Source of the DNA: Thalassovita litoralis
GTDB taxonomy: Bacteria > Pseudomonadota > Alphaproteobacteria > Rhodobacterales > Rhodobacteraceae
DNA: 64,000 bases
Assembly (NCBI RefSeq): GCF_900182725.1
Contig: NZ_FXTO01000017.1
Span: 1-64,000 of the forward strand
Direction: 5' to 3'
Part shown: in pieces, positions 23,336-40,259 of the stretch
Numbering within the stretch: position 1 is the stretch's first letter
How the letters are laid out: each line of letters begins with the position of its first letter
Program-made: the position numbers and the translations under genes
Notes under the pieces: model-generated
What the model was told of the DNA's origin: nothing
The model's input: the letters and a program-made list of their open reading frames with translations, nothing else
The model's database searches: none

Positions 23336-23360
23336 GGTTTTGTTCCTTTCCTGTCCGGTC

Positions 23361-25733
23361 TTAACCCTGCTGCATCGCCGCCCACACGCGGGACGGGCTG
23401 ACGGGCATGTCGATATGATCCACGTTGTAACCACCGCGTTGCAGCGCGTCGATCACGGCATTGACCACCGCAGGCGGGCTGCCAATCGCCCCGGCCTCGC
23501 CGCAGCCTTTGACGCCCAGCGGGTTGTGGGTACAGGGCGTCTGACACGAATGGTCCACGCTGAAGGATGGCACGTCAGAAGCCCGCGGCATCGCATAATC
23601 CATGAACGACCCGGTCAAAAGCTGACCGTTTTCATCGTAAACGGTATTTTCCAGCAAGGCCTGTCCGATCCCCTGCGCCACACCGCCATGCACCTGACCG
23701 GCCACGATCATCGGGTTGATCACGTTGCCAAAATCATCCGCAGCGGTGAAGCCAAGGATATCCACTTTGCCGGTGTCGGGGTCCACTTCGACCTCGCACA
23801 CATAAGCCCCGGACGGATAGGTGAAATTCGACGGGTCATAGAACGCCGTTTCCTCCAGCCCCGGTTCCAGACTTTCCAGCGGATAGTTATGCGGCACATA
23901 GGCCGCCAGGGTCACATCGCCCCATGCCACCGATTTGTCGGTGCCAGCCACGCTGAATTGTCCGTCTTTCAGTTCAATATCAGCCTCGGACGCTTCCAGA
24001 AGATGCGATGCGATCTTTTTCGCCTTGTTGATGATCTTTTCGGTCGCCCGGACCATAGCCGAGCCACCCACCGCGATAGACCGCGATCCATAAGTCCCCA
24101 TCCCCATCGGGGTCTTGCTGGTGTCGCCATGCACGATGTCGATCAGGCTGACATCAATCCCGATCATTTCCGACACGACTTGGGCAAAGGTGGTTTCATG
24201 CCCCTGCCCGTGGCTGTGGCTGCCGGTAAACACGCTGATGGACCCGGTCGCATTCACTCGCACGGTGGCGGATTCATACAGGCCCGCCCGCGCGCCCAAC
24301 TGCCCCACAAGGTTCGACGGCGCGATACCGCAGGCCTCGATGAAATGGGCCAGCCCATACCCACGCAGCTTGCCCCGCGCCTTGGATTCCGCCGCCCGCG
24401 ATTCAAAATTCGCGTAGTCGGTCATTTCCAGCGCCTTATCCAAGGTCGCATCATAGTTGCCGGTGTCATACATCACCGCCACCGGGGTCTGATACGGGAA
24501 CTGATCGGGCTTGATGAAATTCAGCCGCCGCAGCTCTGCCGGGTCCATCCCAATCTCGCGCGCAGCTTTATCAATCACGCGTTCCAATTGATACGTCGCC
24601 TCGGGTCGCCCAGCGCCGCGATAGGCATCGACGGGAACCGTATTGGTGAACACGGCCTTTACGTTCACATAAACCAGCGGCGTGGTGTAGTTCCCCGCCA
24701 TCAGCGTGCCATGCAGCCACGTTGGGATAGACGGCGCAAAGGTCGACAGATACGCGCCCATATTGGCATAGGTGTCGGTACGCACGGCGGTGAACTTATG
24801 GTTTTCATCCATCGCCAGTTCGATTTTCGTCACATGGTCGCGCCCATGCGCATCCGAAATGAACGCCTCGGACCGGGAGGAGGTCCATTTCACCGGACGG
24901 TTCACCACTTTGGCGGCATAGGTCACGAATGCTTCTTCGGCATAGTGATAGATCTTCGACCCGAAACCGCCGCCCACATCCGGGGCCACAACGCGCAGCT
25001 TATGTTCGGGGATGCCCAGCACGAAGGCCCCCATCAGCAGTCGGATCACATGCGGGTTCTGGCTGGTGGTATACAGCGTATATTCATCATTGGCGCGGGA
25101 ATATTGCCCCACGGCCACGCGCGGCTCCATCGGGTTCGGCACCAGACGGTTGTTGGTCAGCTCCAGCGTGGTGACATGATGCGCCGATTTGATCGCCTGA
25201 TCCACGGCTTCGCGGTTTTCTTCGACAAAGCCCCAGTCGTAACACAGGTTGCTGGTCAGATCGTCATGCACCTTGGTGGCACCATCCGCCAGCGCGTCCT
25301 TCATGTTCAGGACCGGCTCCAGCTCCTCGATGTCGACCTCGATCGCCTCGACCGCATCGCGGGCCTGTTCGGCGGTTTCGGCCACGACAACGGCAATCGG
25401 GTCGCCCACATGGCGGACTTTACCTTCGGCCAGAATGGGGTGTTTGGGTTCCTGCATCGGCTGGCCGAAACGGTCTGTCACCTGCCATCCGCAGGGAATG
25501 CCACCGGCCTGCGCAAAATCCGCAGCGGTGAAAATTTTCACCACCCCGTCCATCGCTTCGGCGGCGCTGGTGTCAATGCTGTTGATTGTGCCATGCGCCA
25601 CGTCCGAGCGCAGAAAACAGGCATAGGTCTGCCCGGCAATATTGATGTCGTCGGTGTAGTTGCCGACCCCGGTCAGAAACCGGATATCCTCGCGGCGCTT
25701 GGTGCTGTCGCCGATGCCTCCGTCTTTGGGCAT
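23361..25733 (-). CDS. coxL: Molybdenum hydroxylase large subunit (form II CoxL-like)
   Basis: 790 residues. The catalytic subunit binds molybdopterin cytosine dinucleotide. The active-site loop reads AYRGAGR at 370-376, which is the form II signature; form I CO dehydrogenase has AYxCSFR instead. The Mo-cofactor motifs [10 protein letters not shown] (251-260) and the C-terminal [13 protein letters not shown] with the catalytic glutamate are intact. Form II enzymes are annotated as CO dehydrogenases, but many probably oxidise aldehydes or other small molecules. The adjacency to a quinoprotein alcohol oxidation cluster makes an aldehyde substrate a reasonable inference. Confidence 0.93.
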
Positions 25734-25756
25734 GTCTGGTCCTCCCTGTCCTTGTG

Positions 25757-26242
25757 TTATTCTGCTGCGATGGCGCCCACGTCCTGCCCGGACGCCGCCA
25801 TGATTGCCTTGACGATGTTATGATACCCGGTGCAGCGGCAAATATTGCCTTCCAGATAGTGACGGATTTCGGTTTCCGTCGGCTTGGGGTTGTCCTTCAA
25901 CAGCGCTGCCGCAGACATCACCATGCCCGGCGTACAGAACCCGCATTGCAACCCATGATGATCCTGAAACGCCTGTTGAATGGCATTCAGCGTGCCATCC
26001 GGCGCAGCCTGTCCTTCGATGGTGGAAACATCTGCCCCATCGGCCTCGGCGGCCAGCATGGTACAGGATTTCACGGCTTTTCCGTTCACATGCACGACAC
26101 AAGCGCCGCATTGGCTGGTGTCACAGCCCACATGAGTGCCAGTCAGCCCCAGCGTGTCACGCAGGAATTGCACCAGCAGCGTGCGCCCTTCGGCGTCGCC
26201 CGAACGGGTCTTGCCGTTCACGGTCATTGTGATTTTGGTCAT
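25757..26242 (-). CDS. coxS: Molybdenum hydroxylase [2Fe-2S] subunit (CoxS-like)
   Basis: 161 residues. It carries two [2Fe-2S] clusters that move electrons from Mo to FAD. The plant-ferredoxin-type cluster uses C40, C45, C48 and C60 ([16 protein letters not shown]...C). The second uses C100, C103, C135 and C137 (CGFC...CRC). All eight cysteines are present, so the subunit should be functional. It sits between coxG and coxL with gaps of under 30 bases. Confidence 0.95.
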
Positions 26243-26270
26243 TTGGTCCTCCCTAATGCGATTGCTTGGA

Positions 26271-26813
26271 TCAGCCGCCGAACATACGTTTCAGCAGGCT
26301 TTTCTTGGCGGGTGCCTCTGTGGTTTCGGCATTTTCTGCCGGGTCAGCTTCGGGCGCTTCGGCGGGGGCTGCGTTCCCCTCGACCTCGGCCTGAAAGCAT
26401 TCAAAAAACTGATCGGCCATTTTTTTCGCGAAACTGTCGATGATCCGGCTGCCCAGTTGCGCCAGCTTGCCGCCCACTTTGGCGTCCACCTCGTAATGCA
26501 GCGCGGTGCCTGCGCCGTTATCGGCCAATGTGACCCGTGCGCCGCCTTTGGCAAAGCCAGCCGCGCCGCCCTTACCTTCGCCGCTCAGCGTCAGGCTTTT
26601 GCCTTCGACAATATCGGACAGCGTGACCGCCCCCTTGAAGGTCGCCTTTACCGGCCCGACCTTCTGCACCACCGTGGCCTCGAACCCATCTTCGGCAGAG
26701 CCGGTCATTTCCTGACAGCCGGGAACGCATTCCTTTAGCACATCCGCAGACAATAACGCCTGCCAGACAGCGGCGCGGGGGGCGGCGATTTCGCGGGTAT
26801 CCTTCAGTTCCAT
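26271..26813 (-). CDS. coxG: CoxG-like SRPBCC protein
   Basis: 180 residues. The N-terminal 150 form a SRPBCC fold typical of CoxG ([34 protein letters not shown], then the G-x-A-x-V-x-x-K-V-G-P-V segment). CoxG has been linked to membrane attachment or quinone delivery for Mo hydroxylases. The C-terminus adds a proline/alanine/glutamate-rich linker and a short basic tail ([11 protein letters not shown]) that could be a membrane-touching helix, which fits that role. First gene of the operon. A candidate operator lies 54 bases upstream. Confidence 0.9.
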
Positions 26814-26867: not shown

Positions 26868-26879
26868 ATTCGACCAAAG
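26868..26879. promoter_or_regulatory. CGACCAAAGTCG-type motif before coxG
   Basis: ATTCGACCAAAG here is identical to the 12 bases found (opposite strand) at 28584-28595 between the cytochrome and binding-protein genes of the quinoprotein cluster. It links the cox operon to the motif family described at 33374-33418. Confidence 0.55.
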
Positions 26880-26886
26880 CAGGGGG

Positions 26887-27789
26887 TCAGCGCAAAGCAG
26901 GGGGCGAATAGGTCAGGCCATAGCGGGCGAAAATCGCGGCAATCCGGCCATCCTGCATGGCGGCGTAAATCGCGTCATCCACCGCATAAGCCAATGGTTT
27001 ATAAGCAAAATGAGAAGCAACACCGATGGTCCAGCGGGCCTTGGCAAATCCGGGCAAGGGCGGTGTGTGCAGGTCCAGCGCATCGGTCAGGGCAAATTCC
27101 AGTTCGGCCTGCGGTCCCATCGCGGCCATGCTGTCCCCACGCGCCAATGCGCCCATCGCCTGCGTATAATCCGCATAGCGTTGCACATGCTGGCCCAACT
27201 GACCGCCCGGAAAAGCCGACAGATAAAAATCCGCGATCGAGTCATTTTCCACCGCGACACTATCGAACCGGAAATACGCGGGAACAGGCGGATCGTCAGG
27301 ATAGGCATCTTTGCGATAGGCGATTGCCACCTGTTCCACATGATATTGGCCGGTGAACACGACCTGTTCCACCCGACAGGTAAATTCGCTGTCATAGGGA
27401 ACGTGCAACATCACATTGGCGACGGCCCCGCCCACAACCGGGCCTTTCCACACCCAGTTACGCAAATCCGCCTCCAGCGTTTCGCCCGCAGTCACCAGTT
27501 TGAATCGCGGTTCCACACCAATATCCGCCGCAATCAGGCGGGCGATGTCGATATCCACACCAGTGATTTCGCCGTTTTGTTCAAATGACCACGGCGGGAA
27601 GTTTTCATAGGCGGCAAAGGTCATGAACCCCTGCGCCTGTATTGCATCCAGATCAGCCCCAACCACATCGCGCGCGACATTCTGGGGTTTAGGTTGGGGC
27701 ACATAATCACCGCACCGGGCAAGGGATGGGGAACCTGCCAAAAGTGCCAGACTTGTCACAAGTCCGAGGGAGAGGAAATTTGCGATCAT
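26887..27789 (-). CDS. Quinoprotein dehydrogenase-associated binding protein (MoxJ/XoxJ-like)
   Basis: 300 residues with a signal peptide ending near SPSLA. The mature part is a family-3 solute-binding fold (GFMTFAAYENFPPWSFEQNGEITGVDIDIARLIA is the usual first lobe). It matches the group found next to PQQ alcohol dehydrogenases (MoxJ/XoxJ type), where it is thought to help activate or mature the dehydrogenase rather than to serve a transporter. It is cotranscribed with the PedF-type cytochrome 18 bases upstream. The start at 27789 has AAGGGGG upstream. Confidence 0.87.
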   Translation of the reverse strand: MIANFLSLGLVTSLALLAGSPSLARCGDYVPQPKPQNVARDVVGADLDAIQAQGFMTFAAYENFPPWSFEQNGEITGVDIDIARLIAADIGVEPRFKLVTAGETLEADLRNWVWKGPVVGGAVANVMLHVPYDSEFTCRVEQVVFTGQYHVEQVAIAYRKDAYPDDPPVPAYFRFDSVAVENDSIADFYLSAFPGGQLGQHVQRYADYTQAMGALARGDSMAAMGPQAELEFALTDALDLHTPPLPGFAKARWTIGVASHFAYKPLAYAVDDAIYAAMQDGRIAAIFARYGLTYSPPALR

Positions 27790-27807
27790 GTGCCCCCCTT
27801 TTTCCGC

Positions 27808-28485
27808 TTAATGCGCTGCGGAAAGGCCGATTGTCAGCGCCTCGGCGGCGGCATGATAATCGGGGTTTGCGCCAGAAATCAGATGGGCCGCGCGATAAGC
27901 CACGCTGTCAGCCAGCGGCGCCCCCGATCCGGTTTCCACCTGATCGGCAATGGATTGCAATTCGCTGTGCAGCGCGGCGGTATCCCCTGCACCGCCTTTT
28001 GCCATGTCCGCCAGTTGATCGCGGATTTCCTTTAGACGGGTGGAGAATTCATCCAGTTCGCCATCATCGGGGCGCGTTTCAATATAGGTGCGAATGGCCC
28101 ACGCGGCTTTCTGACCCAGCAGTTCCCCAAAAGCGGGCATCTTGGTAATCCCGTTCTGGGTATATCCTGTCTGGAACCGTTCCACGAACCATTCATCGCC
28201 GTATTCTTCGGCCTCCAGATACCGCAGATCGGGGGCCAACCCGCCCGACACCGCACCCAGCCCATGACAGCGGGCGCAGTTCTGGTTATAGCCGCTGGAC
28301 CCAATGTCCACCGCCGTCTGCCAAACCTGATCCCCCTGACTGCGGTATGGGTTTTCGCTCAGCCATTCTTCGCCCACATCAGGCAGGGCATCGGTGTTCA
28401 CCGGCTGCGGCGCGACATCCCCATGCGCCAGCGCCATGCCAGCCACAGCGATCAGCCCCAGAGCGGTGACAGTCATGCGTTTCAT
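27808..28485 (-). CDS. pedF: PedF-type cytochrome c-550
   Basis: 225 residues with signal peptide MKRMTVTALGLIAVAGMALA. One haem site is present, C70-A-R-C-H74, with a likely axial methionine in ITKMPAFGEL. The opening HGDVAPQPVNTDALP and the overall layout match the cytochrome c-550 PedF family, the electron acceptor linked to quinoprotein ethanol dehydrogenases. The C-terminal third is a helical extension without a second haem motif. The start at 28485 has GGGAGGA upstream. It is divergent from the binding-protein gene at 28648, across a region with two candidate operators. Confidence 0.9.
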   Translation of the reverse strand: MKRMTVTALGLIAVAGMALAHGDVAPQPVNTDALPDVGEEWLSENPYRSQGDQVWQTAVDIGSSGYNQNCARCHGLGAVSGGLAPDLRYLEAEEYGDEWFVERFQTGYTQNGITKMPAFGELLGQKAAWAIRTYIETRPDDGELDEFSTRLKEIRDQLADMAKGGAGDTAALHSELQSIADQVETGSGAPLADSVAYRAAHLISGANPDYHAAAEALTIGLSAAH

Positions 28486-28546
28486 TTGTGAAATCCTCCC
28501 GGTCGCTTGGTTTTGAAGGCACTTAAACCGCAACTTGCCGACAGGG

Positions 28547-28595
28547 ATATTCGACCTTGGTTCAATCCCCCGCAAAAGCAAGACTTTGGTCGAAT
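28547..28595. promoter_or_regulatory. Two CGACCAAAGTCG-type motifs in a divergent promoter region
   Basis: Site one, 28547-28566, reads ATATTCGACCTTGGTTCAAT. Site two, 28581-28595, reads on the minus strand ATTCGACCAAAGTCT. Their centres are about 32 bases (three helical turns) apart, between the divergent pedF-like gene (minus) and the binding-protein operon (plus). Two sites may serve one promoter each. Confidence 0.6.
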
Positions 28596-28647
28596 GGCGG
28601 GGGGCTGTCCGCTGGTTCTACGCTTTCCCCAACAGGGAGGACGGAAC

Positions 28648-29823
28648 ATGAAACGGCTGTTATGCAGGGCCGCTGTGCTGGCGCTATCGGTCTGTGTGGG
28701 GGCGCAATCCGCGTTTGGCGACGTTTCCTTGCGCATCGCCTATTTGCGGCACGAACGGACCCACCCGCCGGTTCTGTCCAACCTGTCCCCGATCCCCGAC
28801 GATCTGGGCATTGCCGGGGCGGAACTGGCGCTGAAGGACAGCCAGACCACAGGCAAATTTCTGGGTCACAGCTATGAATTATCGGTGATCAGCGTCCCCC
28901 CCGAAGGCAATGTCATCCCCGCCGCGTTGGGGGTGCTGGCGGGCAGCGATCTGGTGCTGCTGGATATGCCCGCCCCGGATGTGCTGGCGGTGGCGGACCT
29001 GCCTGCGGCACAGGCAGCACTGTTGTTCAACGTCACCGCCCCGGATGATGCGCTGCGCGATACCGATTGCCGGGGCAACCTGTTTCACACCCTGCCCAGC
29101 CACGCCATGCGCACCGATGCGCTGATGCAATTCATCATGTCAAAACGCTGGTCCGATCTGGCGCTGATTCAGGGGGCGCACCCCGAAGACGCGGCCTTTG
29201 CCGCCGCGCTGGACCGCAGCGCCGCCAAGTTCGGGTTGAAAATCGGCCCCCGCAAAACATGGACCTTTGACGCGGATATGCGGCGGAACGCAGCCCAAGA
29301 GGTGCCGCTGTTCACGCAAGATCTGGGAAAATACGATCTGTTGCTGGTCGCGGACGAATTAGGCGATTTTGCCCGCTACATCCCCTATAACACATGGCTG
29401 CCCCGCCCCGTGGCCGGATCGGCGGCACTGGTTCCCGTGGCGTGGGATCGGGTGGTGGAACAATGGGGCGCGGTGCAGATGCAAAACCGTTTCCACGATC
29501 AGACAGGCCGCGACATGCACCCCGAAGATTACGCCGCATGGGCCGCCCTGCGCGCACTGGCCGAAGCCGCCACCCGGACCGGGCAATCCGACCCGGCGAC
29601 CCTGCGCAGCTATTTGCTGTCCGATGCGTTTCAACTGGCCGCGTTCAAGGGCCGCCCGCTGTCGTTCCGCCCGTGGAACGGACAATTGCGCCAACCCATT
29701 CCGCTGATCAGCGGCGATGCAATGGTGGTCCAGGCCCCCTTGCCCGGCTTTCTGCATCAACGCTCGGAATTGGACACATTGGGCCGCGACGCGCCCGAAA
29801 CCACATGCAAGGCATTCCAATGA
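28648..29823 (+). CDS. PQQ-alcohol-system ABC-type binding protein
   Basis: 391 residues, signal peptide ending near GAQSAFG. The body is a Leu/Ile/Val-type periplasmic binding fold beginning VSLRIAYLRHERTHPPVLSNL, characteristic of the substrate-binding protein encoded with PQQ-dependent alcohol dehydrogenases (TIGR03863 type). Whether it binds an alcohol, a metal chelator or a cofactor is not known. AGGGAGGA precedes the start. The stop codon overlaps the start of the beta-propeller gene (ATGA), so the two are translationally coupled. Confidence 0.88.
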   Translation: MKRLLCRAAVLALSVCVGAQSAFGDVSLRIAYLRHERTHPPVLSNLSPIPDDLGIAGAELALKDSQTTGKFLGHSYELSVISVPPEGNVIPAALGVLAGSDLVLLDMPAPDVLAVADLPAAQAALLFNVTAPDDALRDTDCRGNLFHTLPSHAMRTDALMQFIMSKRWSDLALIQGAHPEDAAFAAALDRSAAKFGLKIGPRKTWTFDADMRRNAAQEVPLFTQDLGKYDLLLVADELGDFARYIPYNTWLPRPVAGSAALVPVAWDRVVEQWGAVQMQNRFHDQTGRDMHPEDYAAWAALRALAEAATRTGQSDPATLRSYLLSDAFQLAAFKGRPLSFRPWNGQLRQPIPLISGDAMVVQAPLPGFLHQRSELDTLGRDAPETTCKAFQ

Positions 29824-30779
29824 AACACTGTTTACTGCCCCTCTTTCTGGCGCTTTGCGCTGCCCCCGCCGGGGCCGAGGAAATCTGGATCACCAATGAA
29901 AAAGACAACACAATCAGCGTGATTGACGTGGCAACGCTGGCGGTTACGCGCACCATCCCCACCGGGGAACGCCCGCGCGGGATCACCTTTAGCCATGATT
30001 TCAGCCGGGTGTATATCTGTGCCTCGGACAGTGACACGGTGCAGGTGATGGACCCGACCACCGGGGCGGTTCTGCATAACCTGCCCTCGGGCGAAGACCC
30101 GGAACAATTCGTGCTGCACCCCAATGACCGCCATCTGTATATCGCCAACGAAGATGACGCGATCACCACCGTTGTGGATACCGAAACAAGACAGGTTATC
30201 GCCCAGATTGACGTGGGCATTGAACCCGAAGGCATGGCCGTATCCCCCGATGGAACAATCGCCATCACCACATCAGAAACTACCAATATGGCGCATTGGA
30301 TCGACACGGAAACTCGCCAGATCGTCGCGAACACGCTGGTCGATGCCCGCCCGCGTCACGCCGAATTCGCCGCGCATGGCACGCAGCTATGGGTCAGCGC
30401 GGAAATCGGTGGCACGGTCAGCGTGTTTGACGTGGCCAGCAAAGCCGAAAAGGCCAAGATTCATTTCAAGGTCAAAGGCGTTCACCCCGACCGGGTGCAG
30501 CCCGTTGGGTTTGAATTCACCGCCGATGAAAAAACCGCCTTTGTCGCGCTGGGACCGTCGAACCATGTGGCCGTGGTGAACGCCGAAACCTTTGAGGTAG
30601 AGGAATACATCCTTGTCGGTCGCCGGGTCTGGCATATGGCGTTCAACGCCGACAAATCCCTGTTGTTCACCACCAATGGCGTCTCTGGCGATGTCACCGT
30701 GATCGACGTAGCCAGCCGCAAACCCATGAAAACCATCAAAGTTGGCCGCTTCCCCTGGGGCGCGGCGCTGCGCCCCTGA
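29820..30779 (+). CDS. PQQ-catabolism-associated beta-propeller protein
   Basis: 319 residues with a signal peptide ending at APAGA. About seven YVTN/NHL-like repeats are visible (EIWITNEKDNTISVIDVATLAV; RVYICASDSDTVQVMD; HLYIANEDDAITTVVD; ELWVSAEIGG equivalents; LLFTTNGVSGDVTVIDVA). It matches the TIGR03866-type propeller encoded in Ped/Exa alcohol clusters. Its function is unknown; a periplasmic scaffold or binding partner is plausible. It is coupled to the preceding gene by a 4-base overlap. Confidence 0.9.
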   Translation: MKHCLLPLFLALCAAPAGAEEIWITNEKDNTISVIDVATLAVTRTIPTGERPRGITFSHDFSRVYICASDSDTVQVMDPTTGAVLHNLPSGEDPEQFVLHPNDRHLYIANEDDAITTVVDTETRQVIAQIDVGIEPEGMAVSPDGTIAITTSETTNMAHWIDTETRQIVANTLVDARPRHAEFAAHGTQLWVSAEIGGTVSVFDVASKAEKAKIHFKVKGVHPDRVQPVGFEFTADEKTAFVALGPSNHVAVVNAETFEVEEYILVGRRVWHMAFNADKSLLFTTNGVSGDVTVIDVASRKPMKTIKVGRFPWGAALRP

Positions 30780-30797
30780 TCCATGAAAGGACACCCT

Positions 30798-31235
30798 ATG
30801 AAAGCCCTGATGATATTGGCCGCCTGCGCCCTGCCCTTTGCCGCATTGGCCGAAAGCGAAGGGCCAAAATTCGGCATGGCCGGGTTGTTGTCTGCCAAAA
30901 ACAAACAGGACTTGCCCCCCATCACGCTTAGCGCCGGAATGCCGCTGGCCGATGGGCCTTGGGTTCTACAATCCGGCACCTATTACGAATTTGAAATTCA
31001 GGGCGACGGCAGTCAGGAACTGGCGCTGATCGGGCCGGAGTTTTTTCGCGCGATCTGGATTGATGAAATCGTGGTCGAAGGATTGGAAATCCGCCCCCTT
31101 GGGTTGGACAGCGTGGAATTCGATGAAGCCGGGGAAATGGAAATCGGGTTTATCGCCATCAAACCGGGGCGCTATTACCTGAAGGTGCCGGGCAGCACCG
31201 GCGACACGCAGCGGTTGGAGATTACCATTCAGTGA
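30798..31235 (+). CDS. Small periplasmic protein of the alcohol cluster
   Basis: 145 residues with signal peptide MKALMILAACALPFAALA. The mature part has mainly beta-strand character (YYEFEIQGDGSQELALIGPEFFRAIW; KPGRYYLKVPG), suggesting a cupredoxin-like or lipocalin-like sandwich, but no Cys/His/Met copper set is visible. I do not recognise a named family. The start at 30798 has AAAGGA upstream. The stop overlaps the GTG start of the ABC ATPase gene, which ties it to the transporter. Confidence 0.8.
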   Translation: MKALMILAACALPFAALAESEGPKFGMAGLLSAKNKQDLPPITLSAGMPLADGPWVLQSGTYYEFEIQGDGSQELALIGPEFFRAIWIDEIVVEGLEIRPLGLDSVEFDEAGEMEIGFIAIKPGRYYLKVPGSTGDTQRLEITIQ

Positions 31236-31951
31236 GCGGCCTTTCCGTCCAGTCCCTGTGCTTTACCTACGGCGCCAAACAGGCGTTGGACGGGGTCAGT
31301 TTTGACGTGGCTCCGGGGGAATTTTGTGCGCTTCTGGGACCGAATGGCGCGGGTAAATCCACGCTGATGTCCCTATTGACCCGGCTGTTTACCACCCAAC
31401 AGGGGCGTATCAGGGGTGCGGGGCATGATCTGGCCCGCACCCCGCGCAAGGCCTTGGCGCAGATCGGCGTTGTGTTTCAGCAAACCACGCTGGATCTGGA
31501 TTTATCGGTCTATCGCAACCTGTCCTATTTCGCGGCGCTGCACGGTATTTCCGGGCGCGAGGCTCATGATCGGATCATGGCGGCGCTGGAACGGCTGGAC
31601 ATGGCGGACCGCGCCCATGAACGCGCCCGCGATCTGAACGGTGGGCACAGGCGCAGGACGGAAATCGCCCGGTGCCTGATCCATCGCCCCTCGGTGCTGT
31701 TGCTGGATGAACCCACGGTGGGGCTGGATGCCGCAGCCCGCCGGGCAATCACCGATCACGTTCACGACCTGACCAGCACCGAAGGGCTGACCGTGCTTTG
31801 GGCCACCCACCTGAGCGACGAGGTGCGCGATAGCGACCGGCTGATCGTCTTGCATCAGGGGCGCATTCTGGCCGATGGAAACTGTGGTGCCTTGCGCGGG
31901 CCAACGCCTCTGCCCGATTATTTCCTGACCCTGACAGGAGCCAGCGCATGA
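31232..31951 (+). CDS. ABC transporter ATPase of the PQQ-alcohol system
   Basis: 239 residues. Walker A is GPNGAGKST (about 35-43), the Q-loop is VFQQTTLDLDLSV, and Walker B is VLLLDEPTVGLD with the switch histidine in ATH. The signature motif is degenerate (LNGGHRRRTEIAR where LSGGQ is usual), a substitution shared with the PQQ-linked ABC group (TIGR03864 type). GTG start overlapping the previous stop. It pairs with the permease that follows in an ABC-2-like system whose cargo is unknown. Confidence 0.9.
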   Translation: MSGLSVQSLCFTYGAKQALDGVSFDVAPGEFCALLGPNGAGKSTLMSLLTRLFTTQQGRIRGAGHDLARTPRKALAQIGVVFQQTTLDLDLSVYRNLSYFAALHGISGREAHDRIMAALERLDMADRAHERARDLNGGHRRRTEIARCLIHRPSVLLLDEPTVGLDAAARRAITDHVHDLTSTEGLTVLWATHLSDEVRDSDRLIVLHQGRILADGNCGALRGPTPLPDYFLTLTGASA

Positions 31952-32739
31952 CGGCCTATCTGACCGCCCTATACGCCATCACCCTGCGCGAGGCGCTGCG
32001 CTTTACCCGTCAACGGGGCCGTTTTGTCGCTGCACTGGTGCGCCCGCTGGTGTGGCTGGTGGTGTTTGCCGCAGGGTTTCGCGCCGCGTTGGGTCTGTCG
32101 ATTACGCCGCCCTATCAGACCTATATCACCTATGACATTTACATCGTGCCGGGGCTGTGCGGCATGATCGTGCTGTTCAACGGAATGCAAAGCTCGCTGT
32201 CGCTGGTCTATGACCGGGAAATGGGATCTATGCGGTTGTTGCTGACCAGCCCCTTGCCGCGCTGGTGGCTGCTGACCTGTCGGCTGATTGCGTCCACCGT
32301 GATTTCCTGTTTTCAGGTCTACACCTTTCTGGCCATTGCCGCGCTATATGGCATTACCTTTCCGCTGCTGGGCTATATTGCGGTGCTGCCTGCGCTGGTG
32401 TTGGCGGGGGTGATGCTGGGGGCGCTGGGGCTGGCGTTATCGTCCACCATATCGCAATTGGAAAATTTTGCCGGGGTGATGAATTTCGTGATCTTCCCGA
32501 TGTTTTTCCTGTCCTCCGCCCTGTATCCGCTGTGGAAAATGGCCGAAAGCTCTGCCCTGCTGCATGACATCTGTGCGCTAAACCCATTCACCCACGCGGT
32601 CGAGGTGATCCGCTTTGCGCTCTATGCCCAGACGAACTGGACCGCGGCGGGATGGACCTGTCTGGCGGGGGCAGTGCTGATGGGGCTGGCGCTGTGGGGC
32701 TATGATCCGGCGCGGGGATTGTTGCAGCGCAAGGGATAG
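31948..32739 (+). CDS. ABC-2-type permease of the PQQ-alcohol system
   Basis: 263 residues with six membrane segments and the ABC-2 signature SSALYPLWKMAESSALLHDICALNPFTHAVEVIRFALY near the C-terminus. It matches the permease encoded with PQQ alcohol dehydrogenases (PedC type). ABC-2 permeases normally export, which conflicts with the linked binding proteins, so these probably work separately. It overlaps the ATPase gene by 4 bases (ATGA). Confidence 0.9.
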   Translation: MTAYLTALYAITLREALRFTRQRGRFVAALVRPLVWLVVFAAGFRAALGLSITPPYQTYITYDIYIVPGLCGMIVLFNGMQSSLSLVYDREMGSMRLLLTSPLPRWWLLTCRLIASTVISCFQVYTFLAIAALYGITFPLLGYIAVLPALVLAGVMLGALGLALSSTISQLENFAGVMNFVIFPMFFLSSALYPLWKMAESSALLHDICALNPFTHAVEVIRFALYAQTNWTAAGWTCLAGAVLMGLALWGYDPARGLLQRKG

Positions 32740-32753
32740 GACCAAAGTCGTAA
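32739..32753. promoter_or_regulatory. CGACCAAAGTCG-type motif before the Sel1-like gene
   Basis: GGACCAAAGTCGTAA starts at the stop codon of the permease gene. A possible -10, TATGCT at 32790-32795, lies about 45 bases downstream, so the site would be centred near -55, a normal activator position. Confidence 0.6.
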
Positions 32754-32814
32754 GACCATACAACGCTGCGGGGAAACCGGGTTTTGCGCTATGCTATCCG
32801 CAAGGAGGAGCGCC

Positions 32815-33354
32815 ATGAAACCCATGATCCTGATTGCCATGCTTGGCATTGCCACGCCTGCCCTTGCACAGGATGACGATCCGGGCGGGGTGTTGAACCC
32901 GCAGGACACCGGATTGGGCCGGGTGATGCGCAACGTGGACGAAGGCGTGCTGGACATGACCACCTGCGCCACGGGCTACTACATCACCAAATCCGGGCGG
33001 CACGCGCTGGCGCGCAAACTGTTCGAGGCCTGCGCCGCCGCTGGCTATACCGGCGCAATGACATGGATGAGCCAGTTGGATAACAACGGATTGGGCGGCG
33101 AATATGACCCCGACGCCGCCGCCGATTGGGACCGCCGCGCCGCCAATGCGGGCGATCCGGTGGGCAAATTCAACTACGGTCTGGACCTGCTGCGCGGTCA
33201 TGGCGTGGCACAGGATACGGCACGGGGCCGCGCCTATGTGGATCAGGCCGCACGCGACGGGCTGGACATCGCCCAACGCCTAAAAGGCGCGGGGTATGAT
33301 CTGGACGAGGTAACGCCGGACGCCGACAACTGGAAATATGCGCCGCTGTTTTAA
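32815..33354 (+). CDS. Sel1-repeat-like periplasmic protein
   Basis: 179 residues with a signal peptide ending at TPALA. The second half contains Sel1-type helical repeats (DAAADWDRRAANAGDPVGKFNYGLDLLRGHGVAQDTARGRAYVDQAARDG). It resembles small proteins found in methanol and alcohol oxidation clusters and may help assemble the dehydrogenase; this is inference. One C-x-n-C pair (TTCATG and FEACAAAG) could form a disulfide. The start at 32815 has AAGGAGGA upstream. Confidence 0.8.
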   Translation: MKPMILIAMLGIATPALAQDDDPGGVLNPQDTGLGRVMRNVDEGVLDMTTCATGYYITKSGRHALARKLFEACAAAGYTGAMTWMSQLDNNGLGGEYDPDAAADWDRRAANAGDPVGKFNYGLDLLRGHGVAQDTARGRAYVDQAARDGLDIAQRLKGAGYDLDEVTPDADNWKYAPLF

Positions 33355-33373
33355 CAGATTGGCTGAAACGCCC

Positions 33374-33418
33374 CATCTACGACCAAAGTCGTAGATGTTT
33401 TTACGACTAAAGTCGTAG
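33374..33418. promoter_or_regulatory. Two perfect CGACnAAAGTCG palindromes before the cytochrome c gene
   Basis: Site one (33374-33397) is a perfect repeat with 10-base arms, CATCTACGAC - CAAA - GTCGTAGATG. Site two (33402-33417) is TACGAC-TAAA-GTCGTA. Centres are 24 bases apart. They lie between the Sel1-like gene and the cytochrome c gene. Site one is followed by TTTTT and could also terminate the upstream transcript. Its core recurs at four or more other intergenic places in this island, which argues for an operator. Confidence 0.8.
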
Positions 33419-33506
33419 TTAACCAACTGGATTTATTGATCTTTATCAACAAACAGACAGAACCACAGAAGCTATCTTCATGGCAACCCCAATTCAGGAG
33501 ACACCC

Positions 33507-33929
33507 ATGAAACACGCCCCCCTTTATCCCCTGTTCGCCGCCCTTCTGGGCCTGTCCGCCCTGCCCGCGATTGCCAGTGATGCCACGTTCGAGGCAGTGA
33601 AAATCAGCGCCGGGGAACAGCTATTCGCCGCCGAATGCCGCCGCTGTCACGCCACGGATGCGCAGCATGACAGCTATGGTCCACCACTGGAAAACGTGAT
33701 CGGACGGGCAGCAGGCAGCTACCCTGATTACGATTATTCGGTTGCGCTGGAAGCATCCGGCATTGTCTGGACGGAACCCGCGCTGCGGGCGTGGATGGCG
33801 GACAATCAGGGCTTCATGCCCGGCACGAAAATGCGCCATGTCGGGATCACCGATCCCACCGTGCAGGATTTCATTCTGGCCTATCTGCGATCCATCACCA
33901 CCCGCGACGGCAAGGCCATCGACAACTGA
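33507..33929 (+). CDS. Class I cytochrome c, likely alcohol dehydrogenase electron acceptor
   Basis: 140 residues with a signal peptide ending near LPAIA. The haem site is C44-R-R-C-H48, and an axial methionine is likely in QGFMPGTKMRHVG. Size and motif layout match small c2/c550-type cytochromes. It is encoded just before the quinoprotein dehydrogenase and behind two candidate operators, so it is the probable direct acceptor, with the PedF-type cytochrome as a second component. The start at 33507 has CAGGAG upstream. Confidence 0.9.
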   Translation: MKHAPLYPLFAALLGLSALPAIASDATFEAVKISAGEQLFAAECRRCHATDAQHDSYGPPLENVIGRAAGSYPDYDYSVALEASGIVWTEPALRAWMADNQGFMPGTKMRHVGITDPTVQDFILAYLRSITTRDGKAIDN

Positions 33930-34097
33930 GTCTGCACCACCCCCGGCCATTCCGGTCCGGGGGTGGTTTTGCGCGCAAATTCAACACCATCACAGCATGG
34001 ACAAACCTGCATCCAATACTTTAAGATTGATCAATAACCAACTGATATAACACAATACGGCTAATGTTCATCGGCGCTCAACCTACCCTATTCAAGG

Positions 34098-34117
34098 GTC
34101 TTACGACCTTTGTGCAA
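34098..34117. promoter_or_regulatory. Variant operator motif before the quinoprotein dehydrogenase
   Basis: GTCTTACGACCTTTGTGCAA. Read on the minus strand it shares GTCGTAAGAC with the site at 32745-32755. It is centred about 110 bases before the dehydrogenase start codon. The gap 33930-34216 contains it and a GGGAGGA ribosome binding site at 34204-34210; no clear -35/-10 pair was found. Confidence 0.5.
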
Positions 34118-34216
34118 TTTCGCCGCACCCCTTGCGCTTAAATAATGCCTCCAAGCCTTAGCTGCGTCCGATCGGAAGGCGCTTGGGCTGCGCATAACAC
34201 CCAAGGGAGGACACCG

Positions 34217-35980
34217 ATGAACCGGTTCATACTGACGGTCGCCGCAAGTTTTCTGGCAGCCACCACTGCCATTGCAGGCGTGACCGAGAACGATCTGAAC
34301 ACCGACCAGACCAACACGACACAGGTGGTCACAAACGGGATGGGACGGCATTTGCAGCGCTACAGCCCGCTGGAAACCCTGAACAAGGAAACCGTGAAAA
34401 ACCTGATGCCCGCGTGGGCGTTTTCGCTGGGCGGCGAAAAACAGCGCGGACAGGAAACCCAGCCGCTGATTTATGACGGCGTGATGTATATCACCGGGTC
34501 GTATTCGCGGCTGTATGCGATTGACGTACATACCGGCAAGGAACTGTGGCAATACGATGCCCGCCTGCCCGAAGGTATCCTGCCCTGCTGTGACGTGATC
34601 AACCGGGGCGCTGCGATTTTTGGCGATAACATCTATTTCGGCACGCTGGACGCGCGTCTGGTGGCGCTGGATCTGAAAACCGGCGATGTGAAATGGCGCA
34701 AGAAGATTGCCGATTACAAGGCCGGGTATTCCTATACCGCCGCCCCGCTGGTGGTGGATGGCAAGGTGATCGTGGGCAACTCTGGCGGTGAATTCGGGAT
34801 TGTCGGCACGGTTTACGCCTATGACGCCGCGAACGGCGATCTGGTTTGGACCCGCCCCATGATCGAAGGCCACATGGGGACGCTGAACGGCAAAGAATCC
34901 ACAATGACCGGCACGCTGAACGCAACATGGCCGGGCGATATGTGGAAAACCGGCGGCGGCGCGACATGGCTGGGCGGATCGTATGACGCGGACACCGATA
35001 CGCTGGTGTTTGGCGCGGGCAACCCGGCCCCGTGGAACAGCCACCTGCGCAATGCAGGCACCCCGACCGAGGGCAACAAGGGCGACAACCTGTATGCCGC
35101 CAGCCGCGTTGGGATCAATCCGGCAAACGGGGAAATCAAGTGGCACTATCAGACCACCCCACGCGAAGGCTGGGACTATGACGGCGTGAACGAAGTCGTC
35201 GCCTATACCGACCGTTCGGGGAACAAGCGTTTCGCCACGGCAGACCGCAACGGGTTCTTTTATGTGCTGAACCGCGAAGACGGCAAATTCGTCCGCGCCG
35301 CCCCGTTTGTCAAAGACATCACATGGGCCAGCGGGATTGATGACACCGGCCGCCCGATGTTCAACGAAGGCAACCGCCCCGGAAATCCGTCCGCCTCGGC
35401 CGATGGGAAAAAGGGCGAGGTGATCTTTGCCTCTCCGTCGTTCCTGGGGGGTAAGAACTGGATGCCGATGGCGTTCAGCCAGAAAACCGGGAATTTCTAT
35501 GTGCCATCGAATGAATGGGGCATGGATATCTGGAATGAACCGATCACCTATAAGAAAGGCGCCGCCTATCTGGGGGCCGGGTTCACCATCAAGCCCAACT
35601 ACGAGGATCACATCGGGTCGCTGAAAGCGATTGACCCCGACACCGGCGATTGGAAGTGGGAATATAAAAACGATGCCCCGCTGTGGGGTGGCGTGATGAC
35701 CACCGCAGGCGGTCTGGTGTTCTTTGGCACCCCCGAGGGCGAGTTTATCGCACTGGATGACGAAACCGGCGAAAAGCTGTGGTCGTTCCAGACCGGGTCC
35801 GGCATCGTGGGACAGCCCGTGACCTGGGAAATGGATGGCGAACAATATGTTTCGGTCGTGTCCGGCTGGGGTGGCGCGGTGCCGCTGTGGGGCGGCGAAG
35901 TCGCCAAGAAGGTGAACTACCTGAACCAGGGCGGCATGGTCTGGACATTCAAGCTGCCGAAACAACTGGCGATGCAATAA
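34217..35980 (+). CDS. exaF: Lanthanide-type PQQ-dependent alcohol dehydrogenase (ExaF/PedH-like)
   Basis: 587 residues. A periplasmic eight-bladed quinoprotein that oxidises primary alcohols and passes electrons to cytochrome c. The signal peptide ends at ATTAIA. Vicinal cysteines C124-C125 (ILPCCDV) form the family disulfide over PQQ. Metal ligands are E192 (GGEFG), N269 (GNPAPWN) and catalytic D320. D322, giving the D-Y-D of GWDYDGVNE, is the extra aspartate that marks lanthanide-dependent enzymes. Segments such as [15 protein letters not shown] and [15 protein letters not shown] resemble ExaF/PedH (ethanol type) more than XoxF. No pqq synthesis genes are in the window. Confidence 0.92.
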
Positions 35981-36004
35981 ACCACCGCACAACCTGAACA
36001 GATC

Positions 36005-36034
36005 ACGCGCGCCCTATCCGGGGCGCGCGTTTTG
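36005..36034 (+). terminator. Terminator of the alcohol dehydrogenase gene
   Basis: ACGCGCGCCC, loop TATCCG, GGGCGCGCGT (perfect 10 bp), then TTTGC. The T-tract is short. Confidence 0.75.
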
Positions 36035-36057
36035 CTATACGACCTTTAGGTATATAG
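36035..36057. promoter_or_regulatory. Variant operator motif before the response regulator gene
   Basis: CTATACGACCTTT directly followed by AGGTATATAG, an imperfect dyad that shares TACGACCTTT with the site before the dehydrogenase. It sits 43 bases before the regulator start, so autoregulation is possible. Confidence 0.45.
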
Positions 36058-36099
36058 GCCCGTGGCGGCCCGTTTGTTACCGTTTGTTAGCCCTTTTCC

Positions 36100-36861: not shown

Positions 36862-38043
36862 ATGCAACAAAGCAGCGACCTTTCGGGGGCGCTGGTTCGG
36901 GCGTGCGAAACCGGGGGACCGGATATCGTGCGCTCGGCCTGTGTAGAGGCTGCTGCGCCGGATGCGCTGCGGCAGCTTGCCCTGCATCTGCGGCCAAAGG
37001 ATTTGGAACTGGTGATCCTGTTCGTGTCCCCTCATGCGGATATTACAGCGGTGGCGGCAGACGCCGCCCGCGTCTTTGCCCCTGCGCGGGTGATCGGCTG
37101 CACCACCGCCGGGGAATTGTGCAGTCAGGGCTATTCCGAGGGGCAGATCGTCGCCGTGGGCCTGCCGCGCGAACATTTCTGCGCCCGCACCCTGCTGATC
37201 CGCGATCTGGACGATTACGACCAGCAAGACCTGATCGGCGATCTGATCCGGGGCCGCAACGACATGGCCCGCGAAACCCCTGACTGGATGTCGGAATGCG
37301 CGATGCTGCTGGTGGACGGGCTGACCATGCACGAGGACGAGCTGACCGCGCATCTGTCGATGGGCGTGGGTCCGGTGCCGCTGTTTGGCGGCAGCGCGGG
37401 CGATGGGGATCGGTTTGAACGCACCTTTGTGCTGCATGACGGTGTCGCTTATCGTAACGCGGCCATCGTGGTGCAATTGCGCACCGATTGCGAAATCGAG
37501 GTGTTCAACACCGACCACCTGCGCCCCACCGAAAAGCGCATGGTCGTGACCGGCGCAGACCCGGCCCGCCGGATCGTGCATGAAATCAACGCCGAACCCG
37601 CCGCCCGTGAATATGCGCGGATGCTGGGCAAAGACCCCGAACAACTGACCACGTTCACCTTTGCCGCGCATCCGGTTGTGGTGCGGATTGGCGGCAAACA
37701 TCATGTGCGGTCCATTCAGCGGGTCGAACCGAATGGCGATCTGGTGTTCTTTTCCGCCATTGACGAAGGGGTGGTTCTGACGCTGGCGGACTCGACCGAT
37801 ATGGTACAACATCTGGAAGGCCAGCTAGCGGCGCTGAATGAACGTGGCAAACCGGATTCGATCATCGCCTTTGACTGCGTTTTTCGCCGGATGGAGGCCG
37901 AGCAACGCCAACAGGCCGGGCAGCTTTCCAATCTTTTGGCGCAATATAATGTGGTGGGCCTGTCCACCTATGGCGAACAGATCAATTCGCGCCATGTGAA
38001 CCAAACGCTGACCGGCGTTGCCATCTATCCCCCAAAGGCCTGA
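36862..38043 (+). CDS. FIST-domain sensory protein
   Basis: 393 residues. The N-terminal FIST domain shows DLELVILFVSPHADITAVA and RVIGCTTAGELCSQGYSEGQIVAVGL; the FIST-C part contains VGPVPLFGGSAGDGDRFERTFV and a C-terminal FDCVFRRMEAE and VGLSTYGEQINSRHVNQT. FIST domains are thought to bind small ligands such as amino acids and act with kinases. It lies between a response regulator and a hybrid kinase, with only 5 bases to the kinase gene, so it probably supplies the signal input. No membrane segment is seen, so it should be cytoplasmic. Confidence 0.9.
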   Translation: MQQSSDLSGALVRACETGGPDIVRSACVEAAAPDALRQLALHLRPKDLELVILFVSPHADITAVAADAARVFAPARVIGCTTAGELCSQGYSEGQIVAVGLPREHFCARTLLIRDLDDYDQQDLIGDLIRGRNDMARETPDWMSECAMLLVDGLTMHEDELTAHLSMGVGPVPLFGGSAGDGDRFERTFVLHDGVAYRNAAIVVQLRTDCEIEVFNTDHLRPTEKRMVVTGADPARRIVHEINAEPAAREYARMLGKDPEQLTTFTFAAHPVVVRIGGKHHVRSIQRVEPNGDLVFFSAIDEGVVLTLADSTDMVQHLEGQLAALNERGKPDSIIAFDCVFRRMEAEQRQQAGQLSNLLAQYNVVGLSTYGEQINSRHVNQTLTGVAIYPPKA

Positions 38044-38048
38044 CTGCC

Positions 38049-40259
38049 ATGACCCCGGACCTGATCGACAGCAACGATTCACTGGAACGGCAGAACGAAA
38101 AACTGCTGAGAATCGTGTCCACCCTGATGCGGCGGGTGGAACAGGATATTGATTCTTCGGGCGTGGCCTATACCCAGTTTCAACGCGCCGTGATGCTGGA
38201 GGACGAAGTTCGCGCCCGCACCCGCGATTTGGGCCGGGCGCTGGACCTGTTGAATGAATCCAACGCCAAGCTGGCGATTGCCAATCAGGAAACCGAAGCC
38301 GCCCGCGCCGATCTGGCGAATGCGATTGAAACGGTTCAGGAAGGCTTCGCGCTGTTTGACGCCCGCGAAAAGATGGTGATGTGTAACAGCCGCTTCGGGA
38401 TGCACATGGGCGACATCCGCGAGGCGCTGAAACCGGGGCTGAGTTTTCGTGATTATGTGCGCAAGATCAGCCAATCGCGCTATTTATCCCTGCCCCCCGG
38501 TGAAACCGCCGCCACATGGGAAGCCCGCCGGATGGAGCGGCACAAGGACAGCAGCGTGATTTTCAATGTGCGCCTGACCGGCAAGCGTTGGATTCAGGTC
38601 AGCGAACATCGCACCGCCTCGGGTGGGACGGTGATCTTGCAAACCGATGTGACAGATATTGTGCGGCTGGAACGGCAGGAACGCGAACGGCTGATTGACG
38701 ATCAGGCGCGGCTGATCCGGGCCACGCTGGAACATCTGCGCCAGGGCGTGTGCATCTTTGACAGTTTCGGGCGGCTGGTGGGCTGGAACCACCGGGTCAG
38801 CGAATTGCTATCGGTGCAGGTGAAGCGGTTCCAACTGGGCAGCAAATTTGCCACCATCGTGGATCATTTCCGCCAATCTTATACGTTTTCGGACGGGATC
38901 ACCCCGGATTATATCGTCCAATGGTCCGAAGAAGAGGACACCCCGCGCATCCCGCTGTCCTTTGAAATTCAGCGCGGGCTGGATGTGACGCTGGCGGTGT
39001 TCATGCAGGAAATGCCCGACAAGGGGTTCGTGATCAGCTTCACCGACATCACCGCCGAACGCGCCGCCATCCGCGCCATGACCGAAGCGAAAGAGTCGCT
39101 GGAACATCGGGTTTTTGAACGCACGCTGGAACTGGAAGACGCGCTGGCCGAGGCAGAGCGCGCCAATGCGTCCAAATCCCGGTTTGTGGCAGCGGCCAGT
39201 CATGACCTGTTGCAACCGCTTTCGGCGGCCAAGCTGTATGTCGCATCGCTGGAAAATGACATCACCGACGCGGAACCCAAAACCCTGCTGAGCAAGGCCA
39301 GCAACGCCTTGCAAAGCGTGGAAAATATTCTGGGGGCATTGCTGGATATTTCCAAACTGGATTCCGGGCTGGCTCATACGCATATTTCCAACGTCAATCT
39401 GGGCATGATGCTGCGGCAACTGGACGATGAAATGCGTCCGACCGGCGTGGCCAAGGGACTGGATTTCCGCGTGGTCCATACCCGCGCCGAAGTATCCAGC
39501 GATGCCACCTATTTGCGGCGTATCCTGCAAAACCTGATGTCAAACGCGCTGCGCTATACCGCGCGGGGCAAGGTGCTGGTGGGGTTGCGCCACCTGCCCG
39601 GCAAGGTCCGGGTCGAGGTGTGGGATACCGGCCCCGGCATCCCCGAAGATGAACAGGACCGCATATTTGGCGAATTCCAGCGCCTGAACGCCACCGCCAG
39701 CGCCGCCGACGGTATGGGGCTGGGGCTGGCGATTGTGGACCGGGCCTGTGCCTTGCTTCAGCATCCGCTGATACTGCGGTCTGAACTGGGGCGCGGCACG
39801 GTGTTTTCCGTGGAATTGCCGCTGGCGCGATCACAGCCCACCCAACCGCAACCGGCCGGGTTCGGGTGCCGCCCCCTGCCCTATGACGTCAGCAATCTGG
39901 TGGTGTTGCTGATCGAAAATGATGACGAGCTGCGCAACGCGCTGACGATCACGATGGAACAATGGTCTGTCGATGTGCTGACCTGCAAAAGCGGCCAAGA
40001 GGCGCTGGACCTGCTGGACGAAATCGACATGGCCCCGGATGTGATCGTGGCGGATTACCAACTGGACGATGGCGAAGACGGGCTGGATGCCATTCGCCGC
40101 CTGCGCGACCGCTGCGGCATGGTGCCTGCCTGTATCATATCGGCCAATCGTTCAACGGAACTGGTGCAGGACTGCGCCCAAAGCGGCCTGCCCCTAATGT
40201 ATAAACCGATTGAACCGGCGCAGCTTCGCAATTTCCTGCGCCATCCCGCACAGGTGTGA
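38049..40259 (+). CDS. Hybrid sensor histidine kinase (NahK/ErcS'-like)
   Basis: 736 residues, no membrane segments, so cytoplasmic. Order: N-terminal coiled coil (about 10-95), two PAS-7-type domains (about 95-205 and 225-335), a coiled coil, the HisKA domain with H385 in AAASHDLLQPLSAAK, an ATPase domain with N-box NLMSNALRYT, G1 DTGPGIP and G2 GMGLGLAI, and a C-terminal receiver with D669 in VIVADYQLDDG. Architecture and H-box resemble NahK/ErcS' kinases, part of the ethanol oxidation control network in Pseudomonas aeruginosa. It forms one unit with the FIST gene. Confidence 0.92.
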   Translation: MTPDLIDSNDSLERQNEKLLRIVSTLMRRVEQDIDSSGVAYTQFQRAVMLEDEVRARTRDLGRALDLLNESNAKLAIANQETEAARADLANAIETVQEGFALFDAREKMVMCNSRFGMHMGDIREALKPGLSFRDYVRKISQSRYLSLPPGETAATWEARRMERHKDSSVIFNVRLTGKRWIQVSEHRTASGGTVILQTDVTDIVRLERQERERLIDDQARLIRATLEHLRQGVCIFDSFGRLVGWNHRVSELLSVQVKRFQLGSKFATIVDHFRQSYTFSDGITPDYIVQWSEEEDTPRIPLSFEIQRGLDVTLAVFMQEMPDKGFVISFTDITAERAAIRAMTEAKESLEHRVFERTLELEDALAEAERANASKSRFVAAASHDLLQPLSAAKLYVASLENDITDAEPKTLLSKASNALQSVENILGALLDISKLDSGLAHTHISNVNLGMMLRQLDDEMRPTGVAKGLDFRVVHTRAEVSSDATYLRRILQNLMSNALRYTARGKVLVGLRHLPGKVRVEVWDTGPGIPEDEQDRIFGEFQRLNATASAADGMGLGLAIVDRACALLQHPLILRSELGRGTVFSVELPLARSQPTQPQPAGFGCRPLPYDVSNLVVLLIENDDELRNALTITMEQWSVDVLTCKSGQEALDLLDEIDMAPDVIVADYQLDDGEDGLDAIRRLRDRCGMVPACIISANRSTELVQDCAQSGLPLMYKPIEPAQLRNFLRHPAQV

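Follow-up and report, generated by a model that had tools for sequence, protein, structure and literature searches.

A conserved 7-2-7 inverted repeat as the predicted operator of an alcohol oxidation regulon in Thalassovita litoralis

The gene island and its inverted repeats

We examined a 64,000-nucleotide stretch of the genome of Thalassovita litoralis (assembly GCF_900182725.1, contig NZ_FXTO01000017.1, positions 1 to 64,000; hereafter, the window) that contains an island of alcohol oxidation genes, with copies of a palindrome recurring between them. The original prediction listed eight such dyads, all placed in non-coding gaps, and read them as the mark of a local alcohol oxidation regulon to which a linked AgmR/EraR-like regulator would bind.

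The plus strand of the island encodes a PedA1A2BC-like set (28648-32739), namely, a TIGR03863 binding protein, a TIGR03866 beta-propeller protein, an unnamed 145-residue protein, a TIGR03864 ATPase and a TIGR03861 permease, the four named models all being matched above their cut-offs (482.6 bits against 413.6, 529.7 against 287.3, 347.5 against 302.25 and 439.6 against 241.35, respectively). This set is followed by the gene for a protein that the original prediction named Sel1-like (32815-33354), which matched no family of Pfam or NCBIfam at E 0.001, and by the genes for a cytochrome c (33507-33929) and a PedH-like, methanol/ethanol-type alcohol dehydrogenase dependent on pyrroloquinoline quinone (PQQ) (TIGR03075; 34217-35980). 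Further downstream on the same strand are the genes for a response regulator of the LuxR/NarL type, with receiver and GerE domains above cut-off (PF00072 and PF00196; 36133-36819), a NosP-like FIST-domain protein (36862-38043) and a NahK/ErcS'-like hybrid histidine kinase (38049-40259). The minus strand encodes cytochrome c550 PedF (TIGR04494; 27808-28485), a family 3 solute-binding protein in the same gene line as pedF (26887-27789) and CoxG (26271-26813). The best solved match of the dehydrogenase is the quinoprotein ethanol dehydrogenase 6zcv/6zcw (E about 1e-247), which we take to be the lanthanide-dependent PedH of P. putida; the alignment retains the adjacent cysteines and both aspartates of the WD[YF]D motif, and the shared aspartate pair suggests that the enzyme of the window also may use lanthanides.

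Judging by its sequence and distribution, the palindrome is a real regulatory site that is best written as a NarL-type 16-bp inverted repeat, with two 7-base elements separated by 2 bp (7-2-7), TWCGACC-WW-GGTCGWA. Six of the eight proposed dyads (28547, 28581, 32739, 33374, 33402 and 34098) were confirmed, with scores of 17.5 to 26.7 bits against the matrix described below, whereas the remaining two, at 26868 and 36035, are weak. The best site of the window is the perfect 16-mer TACGACCAAAGTCGTA (33378-33393, plus strand; 26.7 bits), the distal of two before the cytochrome c gene and also the top place of the genome scan; its arms extend to 33374-33397 and, as originally claimed, are perfect over 10 bases on either side of CAAA. 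The exact 12-mer core, CGACCAAAGTCG, occurs only once in the window and only once in the entire 4.11-Mb genome, in both cases at 33380. The proximal cytochrome c site, TACGACTAAAGTCGTA (33402-33417, plus strand; 22.1 bits), has the -10-like hexamer TTTATC (33442-33447) 24 bp downstream. In the divergent gap between pedF and the binding protein gene, the predicted pedF operator (28550-28565, minus strand; 22.4 bits), which is conserved in relatives, lies 23 bp ahead of TTAAGT (28521-28526), and the predicted operator of the PedA1-type binding protein and the ATP-binding cassette (ABC) operon (28579-28594, plus strand; 17.5 bits) lies 24 bp ahead of TACGCT (28619-28624). The site before the dehydrogenase gene, TACGACCTTTGTGCAA (34102-34117, plus strand; 19.7 bits), is followed at 23 bp by AATAAT (34141-34146) and is conserved in relatives, mostly at -106 to -125. 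The site before the Sel1-like gene, TAGGACCAAAGTCGTA (32737-32752, plus strand; 19.6 bits), shares 3 bases with the ABC permease stop codon, so that five of the six sites, rather than all, are wholly non-coding; of the 25,872 bases mapped for coding status, 1357 are non-coding.

The two weak sites appear to be eroded versions of the same element. Before coxG (26869-26884, minus strand), one half-site is good, with TAAATC 25 bp downstream, and the score of 6.8 bits is at noise level because the right half has decayed; relatives carry good sites at the same place (about -70). Before the regulator gene (36038-36053, plus strand), the putative site scores below 5 bits, is followed at 24 bp by TACCGT (36078-36083) and is homologous in position to good sites of relatives (mostly -70 to -100).

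Conservation, specificity and promoter geometry

Should the repeats be chance occurrences or structural elements, such as terminators or RNA hairpins, the simplest string counts would be in keeping with that. The 12-mer core is not enriched in the window (5 matches with up to 2 mismatches against 6.3 expected) or in the genome (30 matches with up to 1 mismatch, 15 per strand, against 83, that is, 46 and 37, for the reversed control), and neither is a loose 16-bp consensus in the genome (214 matches with up to 3 mismatches against 438 in the control). Scoring by the 12-mer or by the loose IUPAC consensus accordingly was dropped; a family-wide IUPAC count with up to 1 mismatch, which found a match in 204 of 394 genomes, was judged too insensitive as well. 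The signal resides only in the full matrix and, therefore, a matrix is required to test it.

An unseeded count of gapped dyads compared 479 upstream regions with coding parts of the corresponding genes in 66 loci (60 around relatives of the regulator, five further loci and the window); GACC-N2-GGTC ranked first, with 31 occurrences against 3.4 expected. Phylogenetic footprinting, in which the best match to TWCGACYWWRGTCGWA with up to 3 mismatches was sought in upstream regions and in mid-gene pieces, gave matches in 25 of 30 upstream regions against 0 of 30 mid-gene pieces for the dehydrogenase, 25 of 28 against 0 of 28 for the binding protein, 26 of 41 against 2 of 41 for coxG, 7 of 15 against 0 of 15 for cytochrome c, 20 of 66 against 0 of 66 for the regulator and 4 of 24 against 0 of 24 for the Sel1-like gene. 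The family 3 binding protein has no upstream site of its own in any of 26 loci at the same threshold.

We then scored the window with a 24-bp matrix, symmetric by construction, that was built from 92 sites of relatives, with the window and the two loci of the same genus (L017 and L018) left out; the unsymmetrised consensus from 53 sites reads TACGACCTTGGTCnAAT. The six sites listed above are exactly those that rank highest in the 64 kb, and the next best place scores 10.1 bits, so the expected preference for gaps over genes holds in the window apart from the 3-base overlap with the permease stop codon. In the aligned coding parts of 13 other cluster genes (FIST excluded), there were 17 hits of at least 9 bits, with a maximum of 14.5. 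Coding hits in the FIST gene reach 18.9 bits and were set aside because they stem from a conserved peptide, GFSTYGEQ; regions upstream of the kinase gene match in 25 of 62 loci, but this stretch is the coding end of the FIST gene.

These figures should be read with the make-up of the samples in mind. The consensus used to choose the matrix sites came from the finding itself, which introduces circularity, whereas the dyad count was unseeded and the tests on pqq, on regulator-less genomes and on unlinked dehydrogenases described below used data outside the training sample. Genomes that are related do not count as independent events; the pedF and binding protein genes have a single gap in common, and where coxG and the regulator are divergent, one site was counted for both. 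The window is included in the dyad count, the footprints, the spacing counts, the dehydrogenase linkage and the coxG comparison.

The distance from the repeat to the putative -10 element is mostly 23-24 bp. Of 156 sites, 35 have TAnnnT at offset 23 from the 16-mer and 24 have it at offset 24, compared with 4 at offset 22, 7 at offset 25, 7 at offset 0 and 0 to 4 at the rest. When a graded -10 score was used, with duplicates removed and offsets 12 to 35 considered, the best hexamer fell at offset 23 in 41 and at offset 24 in 21, in total, 62 of 112 sites. The leading offset is 23 for the dehydrogenase and the regulator and 24 for the binding protein; for the coxG sites, offset 23 ranks second, behind offset 0. 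Together with the relatives-only matrix and genome scan that pick out these very sites and with their recurrence before unlinked genes, the fixed spacing makes a chance or structural origin extremely improbable.

Assuming that the hexamer occupies -12 to -7, the site is centred at about -43.5 or -44.5, the position of an activator, which points to activation of the adjacent promoters. A regulator dimer would bind the inverted repeat and activate transcription from a position adjacent to or overlapping a poor -35 element, in the manner of NarL at E. coli ogt, where the 7-2-7 site is centred at -44.5 and abuts the -35 element (PMC7419079, available excerpts). The arrangement of two 7-base elements in an inverted repeat with a 2-bp gap is shared with NarL; the half-site found here, TWCGACC, differs, and the regulator is only a distant relative of NarL. 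NarL-type regulators can repress as well, and the sites are located in or beside the -35 region, so repression under some condition, or both activities at different promoters, should be considered. The centre near -44, the limited -35 conservation in the aligned promoters (as judged by eye) and the precedent of activation by AgmR (PMC12997753, available excerpts) all speak for activation, and we regard a repressing role as rather improbable.

The pqq operon as an unlinked predicted target

The genome was scanned with a model built from 53 of the relatives' sites (19 of coxG, 13 of the binding protein, 12 of the dehydrogenase and 9 of the regulator), with no pqq site in the training set. Over the whole 4.1-Mb genome, the model yielded 10 rows at E of 10 or less; nine correspond to the six window sites and the tenth, on contig 32, falls in the divergent promoter region between a NosR-like gene and pqqABCDE. 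The regulon originally described as local thus does not appear to be purely local because the scan adds this region on another contig; its assignment to alcohol oxidation remains the best supported one. One further place in the genome (C2:98895, 16.1 bits) lies inside an open reading frame (1054-1428 of L171), is absent from the list of the model and was rejected.

At the pqq locus, PqqB, PqqC and PqqD are above cut-off, PqqE is truncated at the end of the stretch, and a 36-residue PqqA was read from the sequence. The region holds two sites, of 17.9 bits toward the NosR-like gene and of 12.6 bits toward pqqA, followed by TAnnnT hexamers at 23 and 24 bp. The E-value of this row, 5.5, is not significant alone, and the target was accepted on the strength of its neighbouring genes, its spacing and its recurrence in relatives. 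The divergently transcribed NosR-like membrane 4Fe-4S protein (contig 32, L170:229-2310; 454 bits against a cut-off of 1000) has its own predicted site and -10 element, and divergent NosR-like genes recur in the pqq loci of six relatives (L019, L061, L075, L206, L305 and L306).

The relatives were represented by 29 regions upstream of pqqB, after regions shorter than 250 bases, identical duplicates and poor matches to pqqB had been removed; two of the loci (L086 and L240) are on the same contig and two others (L067 and L207) share sequence. All 12 regions in which PqqB is at least 71% identical, the own genome included, have a site that scores 10 bits or more and is followed at 23 or 24 bp by TAnnnT. 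In Ruegeria pomeroyi, the regulator locus L244 has a pqq site of 18.1 bits. In the 17 regions below 71%, eight have hits of 10.7 to 20.9 bits, with the right spacing in two (L312 and L314), and nine lack any hit reaching 8 bits (L001, L169, L250, L283, L304 and L307-L310). The last four are plasmid-borne operons of Salipiger, Alloyangia, Ruegeria and Mameliella; three of these are beside a HAMP-type kinase and a response regulator and the fourth, L307, is beside a GntR-type regulator, which suggests a different regulator of PQQ synthesis on these plasmids.

The candidate regulator and its input

The linked response regulator is the best supported candidate for the binder, and it is quite probable that the palindrome is the operator through which this protein activates a PQQ-linked alcohol oxidation regulon that includes the unlinked pqq genes. 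The predicted regulon would comprise the PedH-like dehydrogenase, the cytochromes c, the PedA1A2BC-like transporter and the Sel1-like gene and, in addition, coxG (weakly), the regulator itself and pqqABCDE with the divergent NosR-like gene. A relative of the regulator at E of 1e-50 or less is present in 138 of the 394 genomes of the family. The dehydrogenase was found in 79 genomes, and the regulator is present in 77 of these compared with 61 of the 315 others (Fisher p 1e-40); of the two exceptions, one genome (G178) is 73% complete and the other (G247) contains a broken dehydrogenase fragment. Among the dehydrogenases examined, a site of at least 15 bits precedes 23 of 25 located within 10 kb of the regulator gene and 12 of 25 located farther away; TACGAC is present in the best sites of 23 of the latter 25. 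In six loci with unlinked dehydrogenases (L151, L153, L154, L155, L159 and L162), the site has the variant form GTCGTACGACC with a decayed right half, and this variant possibly represents an alternative arrangement of half-sites.

A further comparison involved coxG, with a matrix from 48 sites of other genes that included no coxG or regulator sites. Of 41 loci that contain the regulator, 33 have a coxG site of at least 12 bits, compared with one of 19 genomes lacking it, the latter being defined by the absence of a match at E of 1e-50 or less and represented by one gene each, hand-picked from the upper part of the match list. Sites also occur in some distant loci: in a locus from another family of the same class (L283; regulator 58% identical), there are sites before the dehydrogenase and the binding protein, and L291 (regulator 43% identical) scores 14.8 bits upstream of the dehydrogenase and 13.0 bits in the gap between pedF and the beta-propeller gene. 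In two loci with dehydrogenase clusters, L286 and L294, there is no site of at least 12 bits in these gaps; L294, from another class of the same phylum and with a full cluster, shows only TACTACC-like half-sites, as judged by eye. These four are among 20 distant loci scanned, the rest of which have no dehydrogenase match in the stretch examined.

It is conceivable that the operator is real but bound by another regulator, either a different LuxR-type response regulator of the genome or one that was inherited along with the cluster. Indeed, the genome encodes four further regulators with 29-35% identity over at least 195 matched residues, one of these with an in-frame stop, and one regulator-less genome (G119) retains a coxG site. 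Nevertheless, the co-occurrence of the dehydrogenase with the regulator in 77 of 79 genomes, the presence in relatives of sites before the regulator's own gene, the lack of a coxG site of at least 12 bits in 18 of the 19 regulator-less genomes (subject to the lineage caveat given below) and the 7-2-7 shape, which suits the GerE class, make another binder unlikely, albeit less so than repression.

Several observations weigh against the assignment of the repeat to the linked regulator as the activator of this regulon. The co-occurrence also fits any partner inherited with the regulator, and 13 of the 25 unlinked dehydrogenases have sites below 15 bits, several of them of the variant form. The coxG site of G119 (L263) is well placed, with 15.2 bits at -78, and may reflect either a recent loss of the regulator or another binder. 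The 19 regulator-less coxG genes may belong to another lineage, which weakens that comparison, because the other coxG copy in this genome (71% identical) has no site either. The regulator's own site is degenerate in this genome. No peak at 23-24 is seen among the 8 sites at cytochrome c promoters; the site of the Sel1-like gene deviates in spacing, with the -10-like TATGCT 37 bp downstream instead of 23-24, and a match with up to 3 mismatches before this gene is confined to the window and 3 of 23 relatives. Finally, the genome G338 has both the regulator and the dehydrogenase, yet its pqq operon (L304) has no site, and the same holds for the pqq operon of L283.

The class of the regulator is suggested by its neighbours rather than by its own sequence. 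Its best curated model is ErdR (NCBIfam NF041830), with 155.9 bits against a cut-off of 390; its best solved relative is the distant NarL, 1a04 (E 7e-24), and its closest named loci, 87% identical, are those of a Rhodobacteraceae metagenome-assembled genome and of Thalassobius vesicularis. The adjacent FIST (FIST/FIST_C) and kinase domains are above the Pfam cut-offs, and the best curated families of the two proteins are all below theirs: NosP (393 bits against 450), the NahK/ErcS' family NF041832 (385.8 against 400) and NF041831 (414.9 against 1500). From this context, the regulator appears to be of the AgmR/ErbR type, which amends the AgmR/EraR-like label of the original prediction; an EraR/PedR2-type regulator would be expected beside an EraS/PedS2 kinase, and the neighbouring kinase here is NahK/ErcS'-like. 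The gene order suggests that the NosP-like FIST protein and the NahK-like hybrid kinase would pass phosphate to it.

The kind of system is known, and the operator apparently is undescribed. According to the available excerpts of PMC12997753, AgmR of Pseudomonas activates both the core ped genes and a pqq operon located distally, and pedS1 and a nitric-oxide-sensing gene, a nosP homologue, are listed alongside agmR. The AgmR/ErbR (PedR1) regulon and the island share a LuxR-type response regulator, the dehydrogenase, pedF and PedA1A2BC-type genes, a distal pqq target and, beside the regulator here, the NosP-type FIST protein and the NahK/ErcS'-type hybrid kinase; the AgmR/ErbR targets (dehydrogenase, pedF and pqq) are matched here by predicted sites with promoter spacing. 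In contrast to the AgmR/ErbR regulon, the window cluster has one PedH-like dehydrogenase, and an operator is defined here whereas those excerpts give no AgmR binding motif. The FlhSR system of Paracoccus denitrificans similarly exerts two-component control over genes of C1 and alcohol oxidation (PMC8879981); the terms 'motif' and 'binding site' are absent from the available text of that review. An AIDmut-Seq motif has been reported for ErdR, in the form of a figure (PMC9927353, available excerpts). A literature search for an AgmR-class motif, a Rhodobacterales PQQ regulon and the motif strings, with most subscription journals outside its scope, recognised no description; one consensus string occurs in a Thermus and a deltaproteobacterial paper.

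The operator provides AgmR-class regulators with a candidate binding site, and its definition makes the regulon testable by predicting which promoters respond and ties cofactor to enzyme synthesis across contigs. A metabolic regulon moreover would receive its input from a NosP/NahK-like pair. As a tentative extension, such a pair, known in Pseudomonas from nitric oxide signalling, might in Rhodobacterales drive, via an AgmR-type regulator and a single 7-2-7 operator, the whole lanthanide/PQQ system, that is, enzyme, cytochromes, metal transporter and cofactor, in which case the FIST protein would be a sensor of an alcohol or aldehyde, or else alcohol oxidation would be under the direct control of nitric oxide. 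In the ocean, the oxidation of alcohols by lanthanide- and PQQ-dependent enzymes is reported to be extensive (PMC11996626, available excerpts).

Genes for molybdenum hydroxylase subunits (CO-dehydrogenase or aldehyde-oxidase-like) adjoin coxG in the window (22550-26813), and the same type of gene is found beside the regulator-FIST-kinase module in two distant alphaproteobacterial loci (L284 and L285) that have no dehydrogenase match in the stretch examined. Because the hydroxylase genes adjoin the module without the dehydrogenase in these loci, aldehyde oxidation may be its older partner.

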